From Clytia hemisphaerica (lineage: Eukaryota > Cnidaria > Hydrozoa > Leptothecata > Clytiidae), in assembly GCA_902728285.1 (NCBI GenBank), contig CACVBU010000572.1, positions 272,770 to 336,769 of the forward strand: DNA of 64,000 nt, given 5' to 3'. Position 1 is the first letter of the stretch, and the number at the start of each line of letters is the position of its first letter. The notes under the pieces were generated by a model, which did no database searches, was not told where the DNA came from, and was given only the letters and a program-made list of their open reading frames with translations. Made by a program: the position numbers and the translations under genes. This document shows, one piece after another, positions 5,425 to 46,100 of this stretch.

Positions 5425-5795
5425 TCTTTTTATAAGCATAACGCTTATAAGCATACGAAGGCTCAGATTTGCAAAATTCCTAAGCATAACATGAGCATAT
5501 ATGTCAGCTTAAAATATTTTTCAATTGGTCATTTTTATCTGTTTAAAAAGGTTTGGTAGAGGTCAAGTAAAAAATAAGACATTCCACTGCTCGCTAACAT
5601 TCCACTGCTCCCAAAATCTGAACAAATATTTACAAAATTTCTGAAATTTAATTAAAAACTTGGCTCGATGGGGTGAATCATAAGCATGATTCTTAAGCAT
5701 ATAATAAGCATAAACTATGCCTGGATGCTTTGAGAACTTAAGCATACACGAGCCTGACCAAGGGGCATACACTTGCTTATAAAAAAAAAAACCTG
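5425..5795. repeat. AAGCAT-rich element with inverted ends
   Basis: The motifs ATAAGCAT, AAGCATAC and AAGCATAA recur on both sides, and the ends GCATACGAAGGCTC and GAGCCTGACCAAGGGGCAT are imperfectly inverted around a unique middle. It looks like a non-autonomous foldback element. The minus-strand ORF across it is incidental. Confidence 0.45.
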
Positions 5796-6671: not shown

Positions 6672-9600
6672 GGAATGATCGGTTTGCCACGGAAGTTTCC
6701 GTCACCAGAGAAAGATGAAGATGTAGATGATGAAGAAGAAGCGTCTTGTGAAGAACTCGTTGTCACTGGTATCCCTTTCGCCAGTCACAAACATGCTGTA
6801 AGTCATTAGTTCATGTTGCCAACAAGGCTACATTTTTCGTGGAAACTTACCTTACAAAAACTTTCTGTCTAGATTCTAGCTCATTAGAGATAAATCTGAA
6901 CTAAGTTTTGAATCCAAAATAGATCATGTGATTACCTTACCGAAAAATCGTCTCAATTTGAAATTTTTTTTGTCAAATTACACCTAAGTGTCATCCCTTT
7001 GTCGGGGAAGATCAAAACTCTGAGGTCCACTGAATTTCTGTACATTAACCAATAGATATCAAACTCCCCACAAGTTAACATAACATTCTCGTCAGCGTAA
7101 CTCTTTCATGGAAGTAAAAATTGACCAACGGGTAACTGATGCAGAGGTTTTATGAATCCTTTCTCAAAGCGTATACCTTATCGGGAAAAAAAATGTCGGA
7201 GTTTTATTTAGTCGGGTTTTTTTTTCGTCGAGGAAAAATTTCGTCACCTAGAGGCATTTTCGTCACTTTCCCCCGACCAAAATTTCAAATTCGTCACTTT
7301 TATCCGACCAAATCTACAATTTAGTCACTTCCACCGCTTCCACCCGACTAAATTGTCCAAATGAAATAGTTTCCTTCACTAGCTCAAAAAAAGATCTTGT
7401 AATTCGATGTTTAAAGCACTAATTTTGGTTGATAAAGGTGTAAAAAATTTAGATTTTAATTTTGGTTGGGTTTTTTTTTAGATCAGATAAAAGTTTGGTC
7501 AGGGATAAAAAAGTCGGGTAAAAGTTTTGGTCGGGTGATAAAATATCGGGGAAAAAATTCGTCGGGGGGAAATTTCGTTACCCCCTCAAAATTTTCGTCA
7601 CTTTCCCCCGACATTTTTTCCCCGTTAAGGTGTATGGGTTTTTCTTGTATACAGGTCGGCTCATTGAATCCAGCTTTGGGAAACATCGAAGTTCGACGCT
7701 GTAACTTTGTCATCAACCACGAAGGACGTTTCAAAGTGTTATGGGATTGGATCGTCTTAGTGTTGGTCATCTTTACCGCTATCCAGATTCCATACTATGC
7801 TGCATTCTCTAATAATGTCAACAACATTGTCCTTGATGTAGTTAAGAACAATGAAGTCCGACCCATGTTGATTCTCAGCTTAATCGTGGACTGTATGTTC
7901 GTGTTGGACATCTTCCTAAATTTCCGAACCACCTACATTCAATCAAGTTCGGACGTGTTGGAGAAGAACCCTAAGAAATTAGCCATACATTACCTGAGAA
8001 CATGGTTTATAATTGATCTACTGGCGGCCATTCCGTTCGACTGGATCATGCATCAAAGAAGTTATGGTGGGAATGTGAGTATTTAAGTCTCTCATTGCGG
8101 AAATTAGAGAATACTGACTATTTTTGTATGTACTGACTATTTTGTAGCCGAAACGGAGAGTTTTTAGTGCTACAGTATCCTGTGGCAAGTTTCCACTTTT
8201 TAGTCTGGAACATAGAACCTTTATAAAACCCCCCGATAGCATAAGAGCACGAATTCAGAGGGTACTAATAGCCTTCTTGACTCTATCTGTCTAGCTCGAT
8301 CATTGTTCTACCTAAGAACAAAATCGTGCACAAAAGTCTTGACACATGACATGATTTACTATTTTTGTAGACATCAACATTGGTGGGTTTACTAAAAAGC
8401 GCACGTTTGTTGCGTTTATTCCGCGTCGCTAGAAGACTGGATCGATATTCGGAGTATGGTTTAGCTGTCCTTTTTCTTTTGATGTGTTTGTTTACACTGA
8501 TCGCTCATTGGTTAGCTTGTATTTGGAACGGAATCTCTTTAATCGAGGAAGGCAACCAAAACAGTTGGGTTCATCGTATGGATGATATCTTATATCCTAA
8601 GAACGTTACCAGGATGCCAACCAACAATACCCTCAACGGTACTTTGAGCAGATTATCCAGTAATGTGATAAGGATGACGCAATCACAGCGTTACATTGCG
8701 TCCATGTATTACATTGTATCTTCATTGACCAGTGTAGGGTTTGGCAACATTGCAGCAACTACTGAATTGGAACAGATGTTTAGCATCATTACAATGTTAC
8801 TTGGAGGTTAGTTCATATTTTGTCTAGAATACACTCTCAAATTTTCTTCTTAATTCACACGCGTTCGATTGATATCAACTTAGACCGATTAATGCTATTG
8901 TGAAATTCGATCGGTTTCCACTTTATGCTCGAAAAGCCTTATGAATGTTCTGTTTGAAAATATTTCTCTATCCCTTTTTATTCTAGCGCTTATGTACGCA
9001 TGTATTTTTGGTAACATGGTAGCAATCGTTCAGCGCTTATATTCGAAAGCATCCACCTTTCACACTCAAATGAACACGATACGAGAGTTCATGAAATTTT
9101 ACAAAATACCCGAGGAATTACGACAATCTATCAATAATTACGTGCGAAGAGAATGGGCCGTCACGCAAGGCATTGATGCCGAAACGGTAAACTTTCTTGC
9201 TCTTGTATCACCTTGAAAAGACGAGTTATACAGAAGCAGAAATAATTGATTTAGTGGAACTGACTGTTATGAATTACTGTGATCGTTTTGTTCCAATGGC
9301 AAGACCCTTTCATCCTTTGAAAGTTGAACAGTTCTATTTAACTGATTTAACTGTTGTAACTGGTAACTGACTGACTCCACTCTGATAATAATAATCTGTT
9401 TGGTCTTTTAAGTTTCTTGTTCCTGAAATGTTGATGGGTGTTTAGTTTAAAAAGTTGGAAATATCTCGAATCTAATGACCTTTGTAAACCCTAGTATGAA
9501 TCGCAGACCTCTACAAAACCCCTGGTAGTATAGTATATCTATAAAGAGCACGAATCCGTTAGTGGATGCCAGCAGCCTATGTAAACCCTAGAAGTGAGCG

Positions 9601-20959: not shown

Positions 20960-23900
20960 ACGACAGCAATGCAAGGAGGCTTCCCAAGCCAACCAGCCAT
21001 CCGAAGCAACAATAGAGAACCTTTATCATCCAAAGTCAAGAAATGTCAATGCGATATGGACTGGTTTTTCAAATGGTACAACAAACAAAAATTCCTTATC
21101 AATCATGAAGGTAGATTCAAGGTGATGTGGGATTGGTTGGTTTTGTTACTGGTCATTTTTACAGCCATTCAGGTCCCGTTCTACGCCACATTCACCAGAA
21201 CAGCTCCAGTGATATTTGACATAGGGGATGGTGGGCACAGTGAAGCTATTGTCATCTTAACCACCATGGTAGATCTCATTTTTATCGTCGACATCTTCTT
21301 GAATTTTCGTACAACGTACGTTCGATCAAGCTCCGAACTCAAAGAACAAGATTCAAAAAAGATAGCAAAACATTATTTGAAGACATGGTTTCTGATCGAT
21401 CTGTTGGCGGCCATACCTTTTGATCTCATGGTACACGATCACGAAAATAATTCAAACAGTAATGTAAGTTTTTCTTCTACGTTCATTTTTTCTGTGAAAC
21501 AACATTAACATCGACGAAAAGTTGTTAAAAACGGTAAATAAATTTGAATGAATATCTTGGTGCAGTTAGAAGTCCGTAACCGAGGAGTTAGGATCAATCG
21601 GTAGACTTTTTATCCCGTGAGGTTTGATCCCTTCAAATGTTTACTCTATACTAACTTATATTTAGTATAAATAGAGACCGAGACTTCAACCTAGACTCCA
21701 CCATAAAAACCTTCTAAATAATCAAATGAATCTGTTCTTCACTTTCAGGCATCGACAGTAATCGGGTTACTGAAATCTGCTCGTTTGTTACGTTTGTTTC
21801 GGGTTGCACGGAAACTGGATCGATATTCAGAGCATGGATACGCCGTATTGTTCCTTCTGATGTGCTTTTTCATGCTGATCTCTCATTGGTTGGCTTGTGT
21901 GTGGAACTTCATTGCTACACACGAAGAACACATAGATGATAGTTGGGTGAGACGGCTGAACGATGATATTTACCCTCCATTGAAAGAGCAAATTAAATGT
22001 TGCTGTAATCGAATCGCGCAGAACGTTCTCATGAATAAATCACTGATCAATACCACCATCAGTAATTTCACCAACATAGCGGGCACTGTTAAACAATTAC
22101 CGCCCATCCAGTTAGGCGTTGGTGAACGTTACATCGCATCCTTGTATTTCATCGTTTCATCATTGACGGGTGTTGGTTTTGGCAACATTGCAGCCACCAC
22201 AGTGTACGAACAAACGTTCAGTGTTATACTCATGATGCTTGGAAGTGCGTAGTTTCTTATGATGATTTTACTTTGTTTCTTTTCTTTCTAAGTCATTCAT
22301 TTCCAAAGGGGCATTTTTGAACGTTTTCGTCGTTTTTTGGTTTTAGCGACTACGAGTTTTTTGGTATTAGTTTATGTGGCGTACTGTATAACCAGGACCC
22401 GGACCGGACCCTGGACCCTAAGAAACCAGGACCCCGGACCTTTACGAAAACCTGGACCCCTCCTAAATTTTCGAGAAAACACGGACCCCCTCGTAAATTT
22501 TCGAGAAAACACGGACCCCATCTCAAATTTTCGAGAAAACACGGACCCCTCACAAAATTTTGCGGATCCATTCTCCTCAATTACGAAATTTTCAAGAAAA
22601 CTCAGGATAGTATAGAAGTAGAACTTGTTAGGGTTTCTAAATAATTTTTTACGCTGTTTGAGCTTTCTTAGACAAAAGATTACAAAGAAAACTTTCATAC
22701 TTTGAGCCGAATCAATGTTCTGACTTAAAAATTCGAGGCCAAAAAGAAACAACAAGTCGAAGTCACTGTAAGCATAAATTGAGGCTGAAAATTAGATTTT
22801 ACTACATCCTCGACTTGATTTTCCCATGTGCTTATAAAAAAGAGTGAGATGATGAGATGATTAGATAATTTGACGGAAATATTCGATGGAAGAATTTGAT
22901 TCATTCTATTCAAACACGGCCAATTGATATTTGGGAATTTGAGGTTTAAATTATGAGCTGTTTATATGGTAAATGTTTATGAAAATAAACTGGAAAATAA
23001 ATGGATTCGTGTTTTCTCGAAAATTTACGGAGGGGTCCAGGTTCTCGTCAAAATTGGAGGGGGTCTGTGTTTTTGCCAAAATTTAAGGGGGGGGGGTCCG
23101 TGTTTTCGCCAAAATTTGAGGGGTCCGTGTTTTCGCAAAAAATTGAGGGGGTACGTTTTTTTGCTAAAATTTGAGGGGGGTCCACGTTTTCGCCAAAATT
23201 TGAGGGAGCATGTGTTTTCGCCAAAATTTGAGGGGATATATGTTTTTGCAAAAACTTGAGGGGTCCGTGTTTTCGCCAAAATTTGAGGGGTCCGTGTTTT
23301 CGCCAAAATTTGAGGGTGTCCGTGTTTTCGCAAAAAATTGAGGGGGTACGTTTTTTTGCTAAAATTTGACGGGGTCCACGTTTTCACCAAAATTTGAAGG
23401 AGTATGTGTTTTCGCCAAAATTTGAGGGGGGGGGGGTCCGTGTTTTCTCGAAAATTTACGAGGGGTCCGGGTTTTCGTAAAAGTCCGGGGTCCGGATTTT
23501 CTTAGGGTCCAGGGTCCGGTCGAGGTCCTGGTTGTACAGTACGCCAGTTTATGTATGTATCACTTTGCATCAAAAATAACATTTTCCGAAAAAAGATTTG
23601 ACCGGCAGACTGCACACTGATGTGCCAGTGTTTCAAAGATTCGGGCATTACAAATTAAAGTTAGTGTGAATCACGGTATGAAACAGAAGACCTTGAAGTA
23701 TTTTTCCAGTAGGATTCTATTTAATGGTCCTGATACCTTTCCATTCTAGCACTGTTGTATGCATGCATCTTCGGGAACATGGTGGCAATCGTGCAACGAT
23801 CTTACTCACGACAAACGTTATACCATAACAACATGACGAGCATGCGAGAGTTCTTACACTTCTACAAAATACCGCATGATCTACAGAACAACATCAATAA

Positions 23901-32400: not shown

Positions 32401-35400
32401 ATGATTGGTTGTGAGATTAGTAGCTTGATTGCTTAAGGATCAAACGGCTTAAATTTGAGTGCAGAATACTTAATGCCTCATCGACGAACATTCCACCGTA
32501 GGGAGAAATATTTCAATGAATATTTTTAGAGTAGCATACCTTGTAAGTTTTATTATAAGCTGAGTATGATGATTTTGAGTATGTCATCCCTTCTTCGGTG
32601 TATTTGATTGATCCCAACCATTTTCGGTCTTTAAACACCTATAGAGGTATTTGGGTACAATCATTACACAGTTTTTGTATACATTTCTTTCTAAGTGGCG
32701 TATTTTACCACCTTAGTTTTGGCCGATCAAATGCACTACAGGATGCACTGATCCGTGCTTACCTTATGGTCTTTATGCTTCCATTCACCGGTTTCTGGAT
32801 CGAATAAATACTGAAAATGTAATGAAGATTAATTTCAGTGGTTGGTTACTGGTTATCGAATGAGCACGAGGAGCGGTGGCCAAATGTTACGAGGCGTCAG
32901 CGCAACAATCCCTGATCGAATCCCCACTCCTTTCATCGTTTCGTTTCGTTCATAGATAGACGAGCCGGCTGACCATGGACTCCGTGAAAACAAGCGAAAC
33001 ACCACTAAATGTCTTAGACTATCCACGTGGAATATCAAAACTCTGGGGTTCTTTACTAATAAAGCAGGATATCCGGGGGGTTCGATACTTCGAAAAAAAT
33101 CAATATCCTCAACAGTGGGGGTAAACTTTTTTTGAAAAGCCCAATATAGAGATGCAAATAAACTAAGAGTACCCAATACCACAATCAGTGGAAAACTCCA
33201 TTGATGAATGTCCAAATAATATTTGACAGGCTTTACTAAATCCAACAACAATCTGAAAACTCGTTTATAGTCTAATAAAGACAAACCTGAGGCAGCAGTT
33301 TCCATCCTTTATCTGCTATCATTTTAACTGCTTCGATTACAAATTCAATTTCTTCATCTGTGAAAAAGTATGGTAAATTCAAACGGGTGAAGCCAGGTCT
33401 AAAGAAGAAATTCAATGAAAAGCTTCGAGACAAGTTTGTTATAAGAGAGCTGTATGATCTATACAGGGTTTTCACGCCAATATATCATGCCTAAACACAA
33501 ATGTAAAAGAAATGTAAATTTCATTATCTTGATCGTTCATTTAAATTCCAAAAGAACATACCAAACCTTCCGTCTCGGACCCTTTCTTGCGATCATCAAA
33601 AGCATACGTATGAAACGTACACTTCGATGAAAAACATTAAGGGGCCCTCAGGAAGGCCGAACACCATCAATAGCACTAATGATAATTTGTGACAGCTTGA
33701 CTCATACGATGTTGGTCCTCCTTTGAGCAAAATTGTTTGTTGTTCCTGGAGTTCAATCCATGACATGAAATGAAACAGCCAGTTGATTTGAATTCGAATT
33801 GTTGCGATCTGATGATTGAGTCAAAGACTAACCAATATTCCCAGTCAAGAGGCTTTTATATGTTTTTGATAGAACATTCCAGAAAAGAACAAAGTGTAAT
33901 CCGATGAAATCCTGAATTTATTTATTGATTAGAAACATAAAGATTGACAACCTTATAAACATTAGTGTTTTTTTACTGTCTAATAAATCAAATGTTCTTA
34001 TAAAAAGAAAGTTGTTGTGTTTTGTTGTTACTAGGAGACAAATAAGAGAGAGAGAGGGAATGTCGAATAAAAATGACTTTATGCGGATGGTGTAATAAAC
34101 AGTAATTTTGCATACTGCAATCTAGAATGTTCTCTCTATCTGCGATGGTTTAACCTACAGTAATATTTTTCTAGAATGGTCTCTCGGAAGAGTATAAAAG
34201 CTACTCGAGTCGATATTTACTTCAGTCTTTGACTCAATCATCAGATCGCAACAATTCGAATTCAAATCAACTGGCTGTTTCATTTCATGTCATGGATTGA
34301 ACTCCAGGAACAACAAACAATTTTGCTCAAAGGAGGACCAACATCGTATGAGTCAAGCTGTCACAAATTATCATTAGTGCTATTGATGGTGTTCGGCCTT
34401 CCTGAGGGCCCCTTAATGTTTTTCATCGAAGTGTACGTTTCATACGTATGCTTTTGATGATCGCAAGAAAGGGTCCGAGACGGAAGGTTTGGTAAGTTCT
34501 TTTGGAATAGTAGTCGTGTATGTCAATATATATTTTTTTCATACGAGCTTTTAGATTTTAGATGGAGGGAGAGGCCAATTATGATATGTTAGGGCGCGTG
34601 TTTAGCTATTATTCATTTTCGAGCAACTGATGGACGATGTAAACTAACGAGGTAGATCGTATTTCACAAACATAATTATCATAACAATGTGAAAGAAAGA
34701 ATTTCGCACTACATAGCTCAGTGAGCTCAACTTCTTTCGAGTTATTAAGAAATGACGGATACCTGAGTATTTCTTTATCTGAATGTTCACGATGTCTTCT
34801 TAAGTGATGGCGATCTAATCTCCTAAAAATAAAAAGCTTCGAGGATATACAAAATATCTCATCTCATAAATTAAAACTTTTAAGTGGATTTTTCGAGGCA
34901 TTTCAAGCTGTGTAAAATTAAAACTCAACTGATGCAGCATAAAATTTAATACAACAATTTGTTCAGCGATATTTTTGCTAAGCTGTTGGCATCTATGTTA
35001 ATGGATTGGTGTTCCTTATAGATAATATAATATGCAGTTTTGTAGAGATCTACTTGTTAAGCAATAGTTTCGTATGTGTATTGCACTCGGTTACTTACTG
35101 ATCTTCCAAGAGCAGACTTTCAATTTGCAAAGCTACATCTTCGTCCATACCAAGCAGTTGCTGGAAATGAAGGGAAATGTAATGGATTGAAAAAACACGT
35201 TGCTATTTAAAGTAAAACGCACGCAGAGTGACTGTAAAAGGCTATACAAGTTCAGGTTTCACGGAGTGTTTTTCTACCCAACAACCGGCCTTCACAGTGG
35301 TTCAAGTCAAGACACAAGAAAATAAGTGATTTATCCATTTCTCGTAGATATTCGTAAACATGGGAAGAGATGATAATCAAGCTTTTTAAACCAGAGACCA

Positions 35401-38400: not shown

Positions 38401-41400
38401 GCCAATTTCCAACTGCTCTGTCCCAACTCCCATATGCATACCCAGCGACAATACATGTAATTCCAAAAACACTTCTGTTGATTCTGATAATTCTCACCTC
38501 CATACTGGTGTGAAAATAACATCGCAAGGATGGTCAAAGGAGCGTACACTACCTCCAGAACTTGCATATATAGGGAAGGCCCTTTGTCGTGGGAATATCA
38601 AAGATGTGGTTTTGGCAGCATACAAACAGCCTAAAATGAAGGAAATTATACATAAATTGGTCATCAAAGACGTACAAAAAGAAGCAGATGACATGTGCTG
38701 CAAGAAAAAACCATCAATCCTGAGAACAACTCAAAAATCAAAAATGAAAATATTTAGCTTTCAAGATTTGGTGAAAGAAATGGAAAACAAAGCCCCACTC
38801 AGCAAGAGTTTGTTAATGGCGATTGCAATCAAGAATGAGAAAGATTACCTCGCAAACCATTGGAAGGCATCAATATCGTCTGCCATTTATCTGTTCTACT
38901 GAAAAACCGCTGTTGCCATATGAATGCATATCAAATCCTCATCAATACCATTTTGCAACATTCAAGTCATACCGTGAGTCAATCAATTTATATTTATTCA
39001 CTAAAATGAAAAATGGGAAACAAGTCTATATTTTTTGTGTGCATTCTTGTTTGCCTTTAAAATATTCTGTCATAATTTCATTTAAGCTTTGCTGTTCAAA
39101 TAGTAGCTAAAAATAAAGAGAACTGAAGGCAATTCTATCAACAACTACAAAAAAGTTATTATTTAATAAATAGTTTTTTCTTCAACGTTTACTAACGTAC
39201 AAGTCTATATTAATCTATCTATTCCTGTGTTAACCATGCACAGGAGACTAAATAAAAAATTATCATTCTAGTGTAAAGGAACAAATTTTAATGAAAATTT
39301 ATTCAAAATTTTATTAATTCCTAAGAGAACTTAATTTTTGCAAAGAAATAATTATAAATAGTCTAGTAGCTATCATAAAACACGCCATTTTTTATTTTTC
39401 CTTTAGAATACAATCCGCAGGTTACAGCCTCTACGTCTTACAGTTCAGTTACAACCTATTACAACAAAATGAATGAGTATGGTGTAGATTTTGATAAAAA
39501 GCTGAAAGACAAGGTTGAAGTTGAAACAGAGAGAATTGCTCAAGAAAATGAAGGAAACCTCATTCAAGTACTGTGCAGGAAGAAGATACACACACTAAAA
39601 CGCGTTCCAAGGATATCTCTTGATAAAACCGCAGAAATCCCAGTCAAAGTTATTAAGTCACAAAAATTGGGAATATTTAACATAGCACCAGATAGTGACA
39701 GCGATGAAGAGCAAGAGCGTCAACACAATAGATTTTCTGATCATAAAGTAACTATTGACTATAATCATTTCAAACGAGACTTTCACGTACTCCTTGTTAT
39801 TCATTATGATAGAATGATACTTCTCCTTAAAATGAACTCGGAGACTTTTTTTGCTTTATAAAATATGAATTTGTGTCATTACTTTAAAATTAATGGATTA
39901 ATTTTCCTTCAAAAATACAAATTCACTAAGATTTGAAGTTTTGAAGTAATTAACCCAAATATCTATTATATATAGTTTTTTTTTCTTTGAAGCTCGAATT
40001 ACGCAGTGCTGTGCTGAAAATACCTTCAAAACCAACAACGTCCCGGCCAGTTGATAATGGGCGCAAGGTGACTATCGATAATCTTACAACGTAGTTGTAA
40101 ACATCAACAAGATTAAAAATTTTATCAACATTTGACATTACTTGCTGAATTTGAAGTTCATTAAAGGAAAACAAAGTTGTAGGCAGTGATAATTTACTTG
40201 AAGTTGGTATCATTAAATCATTTCGTAATATTTGCTCAACATCTTCCTTTTGGGATTTGGTGATAGATCTGACCTTTACTTCTTTGATACACATCGATAG
40301 ATCGTCAAATAACTGAACTTCATGATTTAAATCACATATACAATCCCTTGAACAATAGTCACAGCAATGACACCCAACCATTCCCTCCTCTCCTGAAGCC
40401 TCGAAACTTTCACGTAGCTGCCTCCTTCTACAACTCTCCTTATTTTGTACATAAGTTCTCATTTCATCACTTGTAAACAGCATAAGCATGCCATTATAAA
40501 TTAAGTGGCATTTACTTGGTTCACCATCTCTCCCTGCTCTCCCACATTCCTGAATGTAACTTTCTATTGATCGAGGTGGTCCAAAATGGATGATCTGAGT
40601 GATACCCTTTGTATTTACACCCATTCCAAAAGCTGAAGTGCATATCAAAATTTTGATGTTACCCCCTTTGTCAGTCATGTCTTCGACTATGTGTTCCTTC
40701 ACTGGATCAGGTGTTTTAGCATGAAACATATCTACCCGTCGTTTACGTTCATCAGGTACCGAGCTCGCATAGAATTTATTTCCCAAAATAGCTTTGAAGT
40801 GTTTGTACAATAGTGATGTTTGTTTGCGTGATTGACAAATAATAAGTGTTCGAGGGTAATCATGTAAATTGTTTTGAAATATATCATTGAAGTTGTCAAA
40901 AATCTCTTCTACTCGACATTTTTCTACTTAGTTGACACTGAATCTAATATTGTCTTTCAGAGGTGATTTTACAACAGAAAATGTATTTGAATGACAGAAA
41001 GACAAAAGGGAATAAATTTTTAATTTGTTGGTTGCAGTGACAGTTGCTGATAATGCAATGAAGGGAACATGTCTCAAAATTGAGCGAAGTTGGTCTAATT
41101 TGTAGTACCATTTTCTGAACGCATTGCGGTTAGATTGAGAATTCTGATCCAATCCCCTAAAAAAATGTTTGATAGGATACGTTTAATTTCTAAATTATTA
41201 TAACTTTGAATTGTACGTACCCATCTTTATCTTTATTAATATATAAATACGAATTTGAGCTGATGATGTTTTGTACACAGTTATATATGTTAAAAATTTG
41301 TATATAATTCTGAAACAATTTTTTAACAGCATCTTACTTCAAAATGTAGTTGTCACAAAATAAAAAGAAAGATGCCGAAATGAAATGAAATACCTTACCT

Positions 41401-43179: not shown

Positions 43180-46100
43180 TATTATGTATTGTATGTTAGT
43201 TTTCTCAGTCATTTCTTTTTCGTTCTTTCCCGTACAGACGGCTGCACGGACTTTAGGTGTCGAACCGGGTTCTGGGCCTACTTTTTAAAAAATTTGTGTT
43301 TTTTGTCGTTTGTCTTGTTCTTGTTCTTGTCTGTTGTTTACCTTTTTTGTTTCTTTGTATTTGTGTGGGAGTTTTTGTTTATTTTTCTATGTTTGTTAGT
43401 TTGTTTGGACTGCGGGTCGGTTCAGGGTTATGCAATCTGGGGGAGGCTGAGTGTTGGACGTCCATAAAACATGTTTAAAGCCGCTGCACCTGTCGCAAGT
43501 CAGGGACTCCAGATTGCATTGGTTGGGTTTTTGAGTGGGTTTTGGTGTTTGTGTTTTTCTGCTTGGCTTTTTAAACTTTATGTCTATTGGTTTGTTGGTT
43601 CTTTTTCGCATAAAATTCTCATTTCTTGACAGGATGTTTGATTGGTTTGATTTATATATTTAGAAAAATTCAAAAAAATGGAAAAAAAACGTATAATTAT
43701 AAAAATATTAGTGCCTTTTTATGTTTCATCTTTATTTTATTTCGTATTTTCAACACTTTCTCTCCTTGAGGTCAGATCTCTGATCTTCACCATATATACT
43801 TATAAAGTTTCCATAGTTCTAATGAGAATCTTGCTAACTCTTTTTGAAAAGAGAAGTGTTTGAAAAAAATGACAGTTTCTTACCATTCAACTATACAATG
43901 GGCTTCATCAATTGCAACACCAATGACATTCTCTTTAAATGTTTGGGATGACAATGCATTTCTCCAAACTGGGATATCTAATACTTCCGGCGAACAAAAA
44001 AGATGACTGACTGCCACACCGCCCTCATCAGTTATAATGTCATCTAACTTTGTGTGACAGTTCAGGATTTTAGCATTGAATCCTTGCTTTTGGAGGGTAT
44101 TCATTTGGTCGGCCATCAAAGCTTTCAATGGGGAGATTATTAAAATTGTCGAATAGACCGGTTTGTCTGGGACAGACTCATACATAAAATCATGTATCAG
44201 TGGCAAGCTTTGATAAATGAGGCTTTTTCCAAAGCCTGTAGGAACACTAAAAAATACATTTTTGCCAGCAAAGAATTGTCTTATGCATTCAATTTGCTCG
44301 TCATGAAAATGTTCAATCTCAAAATGTCTACAAGCGAATCTAACACTTTCTTCAAACTTTTCCATTCTAACTGTGTAAACTTTTCTCTAAATTAAAAAAA
44401 AAGAAGATTATGTATTTGCAGCTACCAAAAAGATTATCTCTGTTTTGTGTTTAAAGCAAAAAGGTAAACAAACTATGTGAAATTCAGCGAAATCCAAAAA
44501 AATTCTCCATCGCCAACAGCTCGCAAAGTTAAATAATTTCAGTAAAGACATGATGCATTTATCCATATAGACGACTTGAGCTACGACTGAGTGCGACCTA
44601 AGCTCCCGCCACCACGGCTGTTGAAAGCTACGGCAAAATCGCGATTGCCGAGAACAAAATCGGAGCCCGAAAACCCGGGCTCCAAACATTCGAAAAAGTC
44701 GCAAAGTGGAATAGACGTTAATTGCGTAGAAAAAACGCGGGTGACGTCTAGTATAGGCTATCGAAGCTCCTGCAGTAGCGAAAAAATCGAATTGGCGTCA
44801 AAGCACTTAAAAGGCTTCCGAAAATCGTCAAAGTGGAACTCACTAAGAAACGAGGTGAAAAATCCCGGTTTTTAGTGAGGTGCTAGCTACGCGAAGGACA
44901 AGTTTTCGAAAAAAATAAGCTCGGCTCAAATTTTGTTAATAAACGGTTGTAATTAAAAGGTAAGAAAAGTAAGAACCTTTAGCCGATCTGCACTAATCAA
45001 GTAATAATAGACCTGTATATAAATTACGTCACGAACATCACTTGCCTCGTATTCAAACAATTACCATGGTGATTGTGTCCCTTGAGACATTAAATGATTC
45101 TTTTATGAATAGGAAGTAGTTTTAATAAAACCCACTGGGAGTTAATCACCATGGCAATAATTTCAAAACGAGGAAAGTGCTTTTCGTGACGTAATTTATG
45201 AAAAGGTCTATTATCAAAAATAATTTGGTCGACTAAAACTTCTCAGTAAGCAAGGATATCATAGACTCACATATGTAAAAAGTGTAGATTTTGAGGTGGC
45301 ATTATAATTTACTTTCAGATTGTCATAATTTTAAGTTTGTACTAGTAGTGTACCTAATTTGAAGGTATATTTCAACTTTGTACCACCAAATAGATGTGGT
45401 CAAGTCCAACTCCAAAAAATGAGAAAGAACACATTTTCGGCACAGGTTCCTTTGGTCTGAGTAAGATCTTTAAAAAGAAGACGTCCTTACTTTATGAGCT
45501 GTTGGTCACGTGCAGCGATATTCTTGATACCGACCGTATCCTTCAGTTGAAAAACCAGACCAGCCCGTATACTTTCGATGATAGCCGGTGTTCCTCCTTC
45601 TTCTCGCATCTCGATGTCTTTCAAATAACGGTGCGAGCTCTCTGTCACCTAAAATTAGAAATTGAGATTCTGAAAAGTTAAAATGGAGATTTTTACGAGT
45701 AATCGAAGCTATCTTTGAAGTTGGAGCTCCCTTGCTGTTTATATACCGCCGGGAATTGGGGATAGTAAGCTTGGCTCGACAAATTTTAAAGCAGAAAACT
45801 TTAGAAGTAGATCATATCGACGTAGAGATGGGCTACTCGTCTGTGTATTTTAATTCAACGATCGTTATGTTCAAAGAACAAAGATAGCGAGTATATGTAT
45901 TTTCACTTTTGAGGACGGTAAAGTGACAGAGGTGGTTTGGAACACATAACCCGCAGTTTTGACCGGCAAAATTGAGGACGGTGAAAGTGCTGATTTACTG
46001 TCGTCCTCAGTTGCAATCAGAATCTAGACAAATCAGATCCTGTACGTCTCCGTCACAGAAAAACACACATACATAAACATGCTTTTACAATATTTAGTAC

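Follow-up and report, generated by a model that had tools for sequence, protein, structure and literature searches.

To our knowledge, heat-shock non-coding RNAs (ncRNAs) are mostly long, repeat-derived or transcribed from SINEs. Human satellite III and Drosophila hsr-omega RNAs are long or made of repeats, the Tetrahymena G8 RNA offers a further case for comparison, and among protein genes hsp70 duplicates are found in a head-to-head layout. In the available text of PMC9032817, satellite III and hsr-omega are ncRNAs made from HSF-type promoters, with hsr-omega working with RNA-binding proteins, while the B2 and Alu RNAs are short structured Pol III transcripts of very high copy SINEs which appear on heat shock and hold Pol II. 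The HSF-1 targets of C. elegans include the ncRNA loci Helitron1_CE, miR-239 and dct-10, which carry heat-shock elements (HSEs); Helitrons are transposons, and the accessible part of PMC6765114 does not describe the three as one family of conserved structure. Duplicated hsp70 protein genes are kept alike by gene conversion over their transcribed sequence (available section of PMC2871787).

The locus described here probably represents a head-to-head pair of HSF-driven, structured ncRNA genes of ~250 nt that belong to a small dispersed family. It would share with satellite III and hsr-omega an ncRNA made from HSF-type promoters, HSF being predicted here from the promoter elements, but that RNA would be compact, with a conserved fold, and encoded in dispersed pairs. 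Like B2 and Alu it would yield a short structured RNA on heat shock from several copies, but these are genes with a TATA box and HSEs, and at about a dozen they do not reach the high copy number of B2/Alu-type SINEs. With the C. elegans loci it shares HSEs at a predicted ncRNA, and with hsp70 a similar homogenisation, here of a non-coding RNA rather than of protein genes. Heat-shock ncRNAs are a known kind; what appears new is that a compact, folded RNA would come from head-to-head gene pairs that bear signs of gene conversion, and among the literature matches listed there was no description of such a family.

The window, the whole 64-kb stretch of DNA that was analysed (C398:272770-336769), belongs to a genome of 417 Mb in 951 contigs. 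The mitochondrial cox1 of this genome is open under genetic code 4, with TGA read as a codon, and has cob as its neighbour on the opposite strand, at one end of a 14.5-kb contig; this arrangement suggests a cnidarian, probably a medusozoan. A search for the GFP family, run with no working control, gave no match. It contains two 285-bp arms pointing apart around a 394-bp core, with one mismatch when aligned (GTATGT vs GTAAGT, at the outer end), as the first-pass annotation of this DNA had described (Table 1). The core is flanked by two minus-strand coding stretches, so the location in an intron, also proposed there, fits the predicted exons on both sides. The host gene, which has no Pfam match, presumably resembles a class V aminotransferase.

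Table 1 Features of the head-to-head pair and its surroundings (positions in the window)
Feature	Position	Strand	Remark
Left arm	33545-33829	minus	inverted copy of right arm
Right arm	34224-34508	plus	inverted copy of left arm
Divergent promoter region (394 bp)	33830..34223	no strand	separates the two +1 sites
Right gene copy, predicted structured ncRNA	34224..34474	+	RNA body +1 to +251; arm identity up to 34508
Left gene copy, predicted structured ncRNA	33579..33829	-	+1 = 33829; arm identity up to 33545
TATA box TATAAAA, right copy	34193..34199	+	-31
TATA box TATAAAA, left copy	33854..33860	-	-31
Proximal heat-shock element TTCTAGAATGGTC, right copy	34169..34181	+	
Distal heat-shock-like element TCTAGAATGTTCT, right copy	34121..34133	+	
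Heat-shock element TTCTGGAATGTTC, left copy	33872..33884	-	three perfect units
RNA domain P1, hairpin	right 34271..34307; left 33746-33782	+ (right)	
RNA domain P2, long hairpin	right 34325..34409; left 33644-33728	+ (right)	
RNA domain P3, 3'-terminal stem	right 34411..34472; left 33581-33642	+ (right)	loop UUUCAUA
Host-gene exon (coding stretch) downstream of left copy	33287..33397	-	
Host-gene exon (coding stretch) upstream of pair-holding intron	35098..35157	-	

With the arm edges taken as +1, TATAAAA begins at -31 on both sides, in agreement with the first reading of the sequence. The perfect HSEs which that reading placed on both sides were slightly overstated, because the left element has three perfect units while the right one, TTCTAGAATGGTC, combines a perfect TTCnnGAA pair with an imperfect third unit (8/9). 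Across the whole 64 kb and both strands TTCnnGAA occurs 5-25 bp before a TATA box at these two places only; in 40 Markov-1 simulations such arrangements numbered 0.8 on average and 3 at most, at any position. The bases around the promoter elements are not alike between left and right. Promoters were compared at ten placeable start sites, those of nine full copies and of an interrupted copy, 940c. A TATA box lies at -31 to -33 in all ten and a TTCnnGAA or GAAnnTTC pair just above it in nine, the paired HSE falling ~45-70 bp upstream and the predicted start at AGTCTT. The best three-unit HSE score is 9/9 in five promoters, 8 in four and 7 in 940c; in winR, 658R and 431L it belongs to the distal element, the proximal one still having the TTCnnGAA pair. 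Against random 120-bp windows a three-unit score of 9 corresponds to p 0.0027 and a score of 8 to p 0.065, while four-unit scores are weaker and unremarkable in winR (p 0.16) and 658R (p 0.63). The argument for HSEs is thus one of repetition and position, among promoters that are partly non-independent. HSEs of alternating nGAAn units do lie near the TATA promoters of the family, and from these we infer control by HSF and heat induction of the gene copies.

Pol III promoters of the snRNA type would likewise show a TATA box near -31 and an element upstream of it; the element at about -55 would then be a proximal sequence element rather than an HSE, and the RNA would be constitutive. The upstream element is however an HSF-type palindrome at varying distance, and eight of nine predicted transcripts contain, within their first 255 nt, stretches of at least five T, at which Pol III usually terminates. 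We regard a Pol III gene as very improbable.

Three DNA searches, with the window core, a C431 arm and a C940 arm as queries, identified relatives on C658, C940, C431 and C342. In total the family was found on six contigs, with nine copies of full length plus an interrupted one, a truncated one and a relic, these counts being lower bounds (about a dozen). Intact head-to-head pairs are present at four loci (C398, C658, C940 and C431), C342 has one full copy (342L) with a truncated, decayed partner (342R, 75 % alike), and C940 additionally has the single copy 940c, which is interrupted by ~1.6 kb. A TTGATGA repeat was noted by eye at both joints of this insert (L010 2162-3799), so a mobile element has probably landed in the copy. 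A pattern for domain P3, built from the known copies, matched ten places genome-wide with zero mismatches, all of them known copies; allowing up to 2 mismatches raised this to 119 places, compared with 61 in the control, and the extras listed are largely tandem repeats. One site, C473:960558, reached 31.2 bits under model R1 and is apparently a degenerate member of the family; its E-value is biased because the site was picked by the P3 pattern. Two further weak R1 matches (E 0.22 and 0.69) were taken as chance. The start motif AGTCTTKGRCTCA occurs at 29 places in the genome, of which ten are known copies. Its reversed control gives 23, and the motif alone therefore finds no new members. About 55 bp past the truncated C342 copy (L012 ~5688-5770), a tRNA-like stretch, possibly a SINE, was seen by eye.

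The copies share a predicted RNA fold of three domains, P1 to P3. In an alignment of ten rows (A1, 940c not included) 14 of 55 pairs are changed on both sides. Paired cells make up 96.7 % of the total against 41.5-48.3 % in slid versions, a control that favours the structure since this was derived from the same rows. The covariation score was matched by none of 500 shuffles; further pair types do not stand out, with 445 of 500 shuffles equally high. RNAalifold, run on nine of the rows with the truncated 342R left out, gave -43.9 on the promoter's strand against a shuffled mean of -13.0 (z -8.8, 0/200) and -16.3 on the opposite strand against -10.8 (z -1.8, 10/200), so the structured strand is the one predicted by the promoters. 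Folds of single sequences agree in plan, with z values of -1.9 (window body, moderate), -3.0, -2.8 and -3.9. Taken alone, P2 reaches z -4.5 in C431 and -4.3 in C342, against -1.7 in the window and -0.95 in C940, where it folds no better than many shuffles. The closure of P3 falls near the end of homology in the C431 and C342 types, and no shared 3'-end signal was seen among the family copies. The evidence for the structure comes from about four diverged lineages. Compensatory change and a conserved fold are present on the strand predicted to be transcribed, as is characteristic of a structured ncRNA. Rfam 15 returned no match over the gathering cut-off for the window and loci L009-L013; four matches to 33500-34550 lay below it at chance level (E 5.8-8.2).

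No full reading frame is common to the family copies. An ATG-to-TGA frame of 23-28 codons is present in six of them (winR, winL, 658L, 940R, 940L and 342L) and could encode a hydrophobic peptide of 23-28 amino acids ending at a conserved TGA in P3. This frame is broken by an in-frame stop in 658R, and in 431R and 431L it is shifted and stops after 10 codons. Variable columns number 8, 11 and 7 of 24 by codon position, with no third-position excess, and both start and stop lie within predicted helices. On the 658R stop, the C431 frameshift and the codon-position pattern we rejected the peptide, and a short protein gene is barely credible as an account of the family. The HSE and TATA promoters, the strand-specific fold, the lack of a common frame and the absence of Rfam matches instead lend weight to the earlier suggestion of an undescribed stress-induced RNA locus, of which the heat induction is a prediction from the promoters; for a control switch, its companion suggestion, the locus gave no evidence.

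Each arm could alternatively be a heat-shock leader, a structured 5' untranslated first exon spliced to coding exons, perhaps with internal ribosome entry or a thermosensor. The window arms end at the donor-like strings GTAAGT and GTATGT, and GTATG strings stand at about the matching place in 658L and 431R. The left arm moreover runs in the direction of the host gene and is followed by an exon with an acceptor-like end, into which it could splice (33287-33397), yielding a shorter version of the host gene on heat induction. The strings are therefore real in the window, as first annotated, but 658R, 940R, 940L, 431L and 342L, five of the seven full-length relatives, have no GTAAG, GTGAG or GTATG at the matching place, so a leader delimited by its donor is not supported as the defining feature of the arms. 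Nor do the copies share a downstream gene: a scan of nine neighbouring ORFs turned up a GPCR and part of a Pao retrotransposon, the others having no Pfam match above the cut-off, and four host-gene peptides were not found in 9-10 kb around the other copies. As a candidate hsp70 leader the arms were rejected. Ten arm rows (940c not included) were compared with the HSP70 loci and upstream stretches retrieved (L032-L052), and every match was short, the longest 47 bp at 77 % and the best 35 bp and outside the RNA body; several HSP70 contigs were covered in this comparison for ~1.5 kb round a match or not at all, and true starts may lie outside. The HSP70 and HSP90 matches, whose lists are lower bounds, lie on other contigs or ~0.95 Mb from the C473 relic, so that copies adjoining hsp genes, which the first-pass annotation had proposed to look for, were not found near any of them. 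Leader exons are in our view unlikely. Two of the HSP90 matches (C212:319078-320930 and C417:908697-910549) have identical scores at matching offsets, which suggests unmerged haplotypes or a recent duplication.

The inverted arms enclose spacers of unequal length at five loci, and ~1.5 kb is common to the C658 copy and the window. Both would also suit a foldback element or MITE, in which long terminal inverted repeats bound a non-autonomous transposon and the promoters are carried by chance. Transposons can carry HSEs, as the available text of PMC6765114 reports for C. elegans Helitrons, and this explanation therefore keeps a small probability. Its copies would however be few, the three DNA searches and the zero-mismatch P3 pattern returning only known ones. 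No target site duplication (TSD) of 6-12 bp was found within 15 bp of five pair boundaries, and one 5-bp match at C940 lies inside the arms. The outer ends are unlike between lineages, spacer matches between lineages are short and near the promoters only, and RNA structure is kept on one strand. Many dispersed copies with TSDs, by which the locus was to be recognised as an ordinary transposon, were thus not what we observed: copies were few, and no TSD as long as 6 bp was found. Combined with the failure to find a copy near hsp70 or hsp90, this makes both an hsp leader and an ordinary transposon less likely, the transposon being decidedly improbable.

Comparison of the pairs points to exchange between the arms of an ncRNA gene pair. 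Differences between C398 and C658 affect 11 of the 502 sites in the two bodies, which are not independent of each other. Relative to the bodies, more sites have changed in the spacer (22 of 390, p 0.011) and in the right flank (29 of 272, p 1.3e-6); RNA bodies change more slowly than the flanking DNA. The spacer is common to the C398 and C658 pairs at 93 %, so both descend from one pair. Identity within pairs is 100 % in C398, 96.9 % in C658, 99.3 % in C940 and 97.7 % in C431, against 62-88 % between lineages and 97.6 % between C398 and C658. At alignment columns 187 and 247 the arms agree within C398 and within C658 and differ between them. Gene conversion between the arms of a pair, as at hsp70, is suggested by these two diagnostic sites, which are modest evidence, together with the 97-100 % identity within the four pairs. 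At C658 itself exchange is not evident, because its arms are less alike (eight differences between 658L and 658R) than either is to C398 (six). None of the four host-gene peptides was present within the 10 kb read at C658, which was therefore treated as a separate locus; we do not favour its being an allelic copy on a rearranged haplotype.

If the locus is such a gene pair, HSF would bind the core (33830-34223) on stress and activate both sides, with Pol II starting at 33829 and 34224. Both gene copies would yield the same RNA of three folded domains, and the divergent layout would give two RNAs of the same sense that form no double strand. By analogy with B2/Alu and hsr-omega, the stress-made RNA may bind and hold a protein, pairing and gene conversion serving to provide a high dose of one sequence; we offer this role tentatively. 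Pol II transcription, the RNA ends, heat induction and action in trans are predictions from the sequence. A new class of animal heat-shock riboregulator, in which a compact three-domain RNA of conserved fold, made during stress under HSF control, from palindromic pairs kept by conversion, acts in trans on a protein of transcription or translation, is conceivable though somewhat doubtful. If true, an RNA that is compact, folded and driven by HSE promoters would be unusual, and the combination of paired genes and gene conversion known from hsp70 would then also serve an RNA product. Because the fold is defined, a start is predicted and about a dozen copies are available, the proposal is directly testable.

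Elsewhere in the window, two adjacent genes (7460-9216 and 20960-22252) have ion-channel-like exons that are alike by eye, and 21722-22252 has a Pfam Ion_trans match. On the minus strand a Helicase_C match (39950-40927) is accompanied by a helicase piece recognised by eye (43880-44386), and a plus-strand ORF between the two has a weak reverse-transcriptase match below the Pfam cut-off. Short coding-like units are repeated in several frames at 22300-23500, where they probably form a tandem or dispersed repeat.
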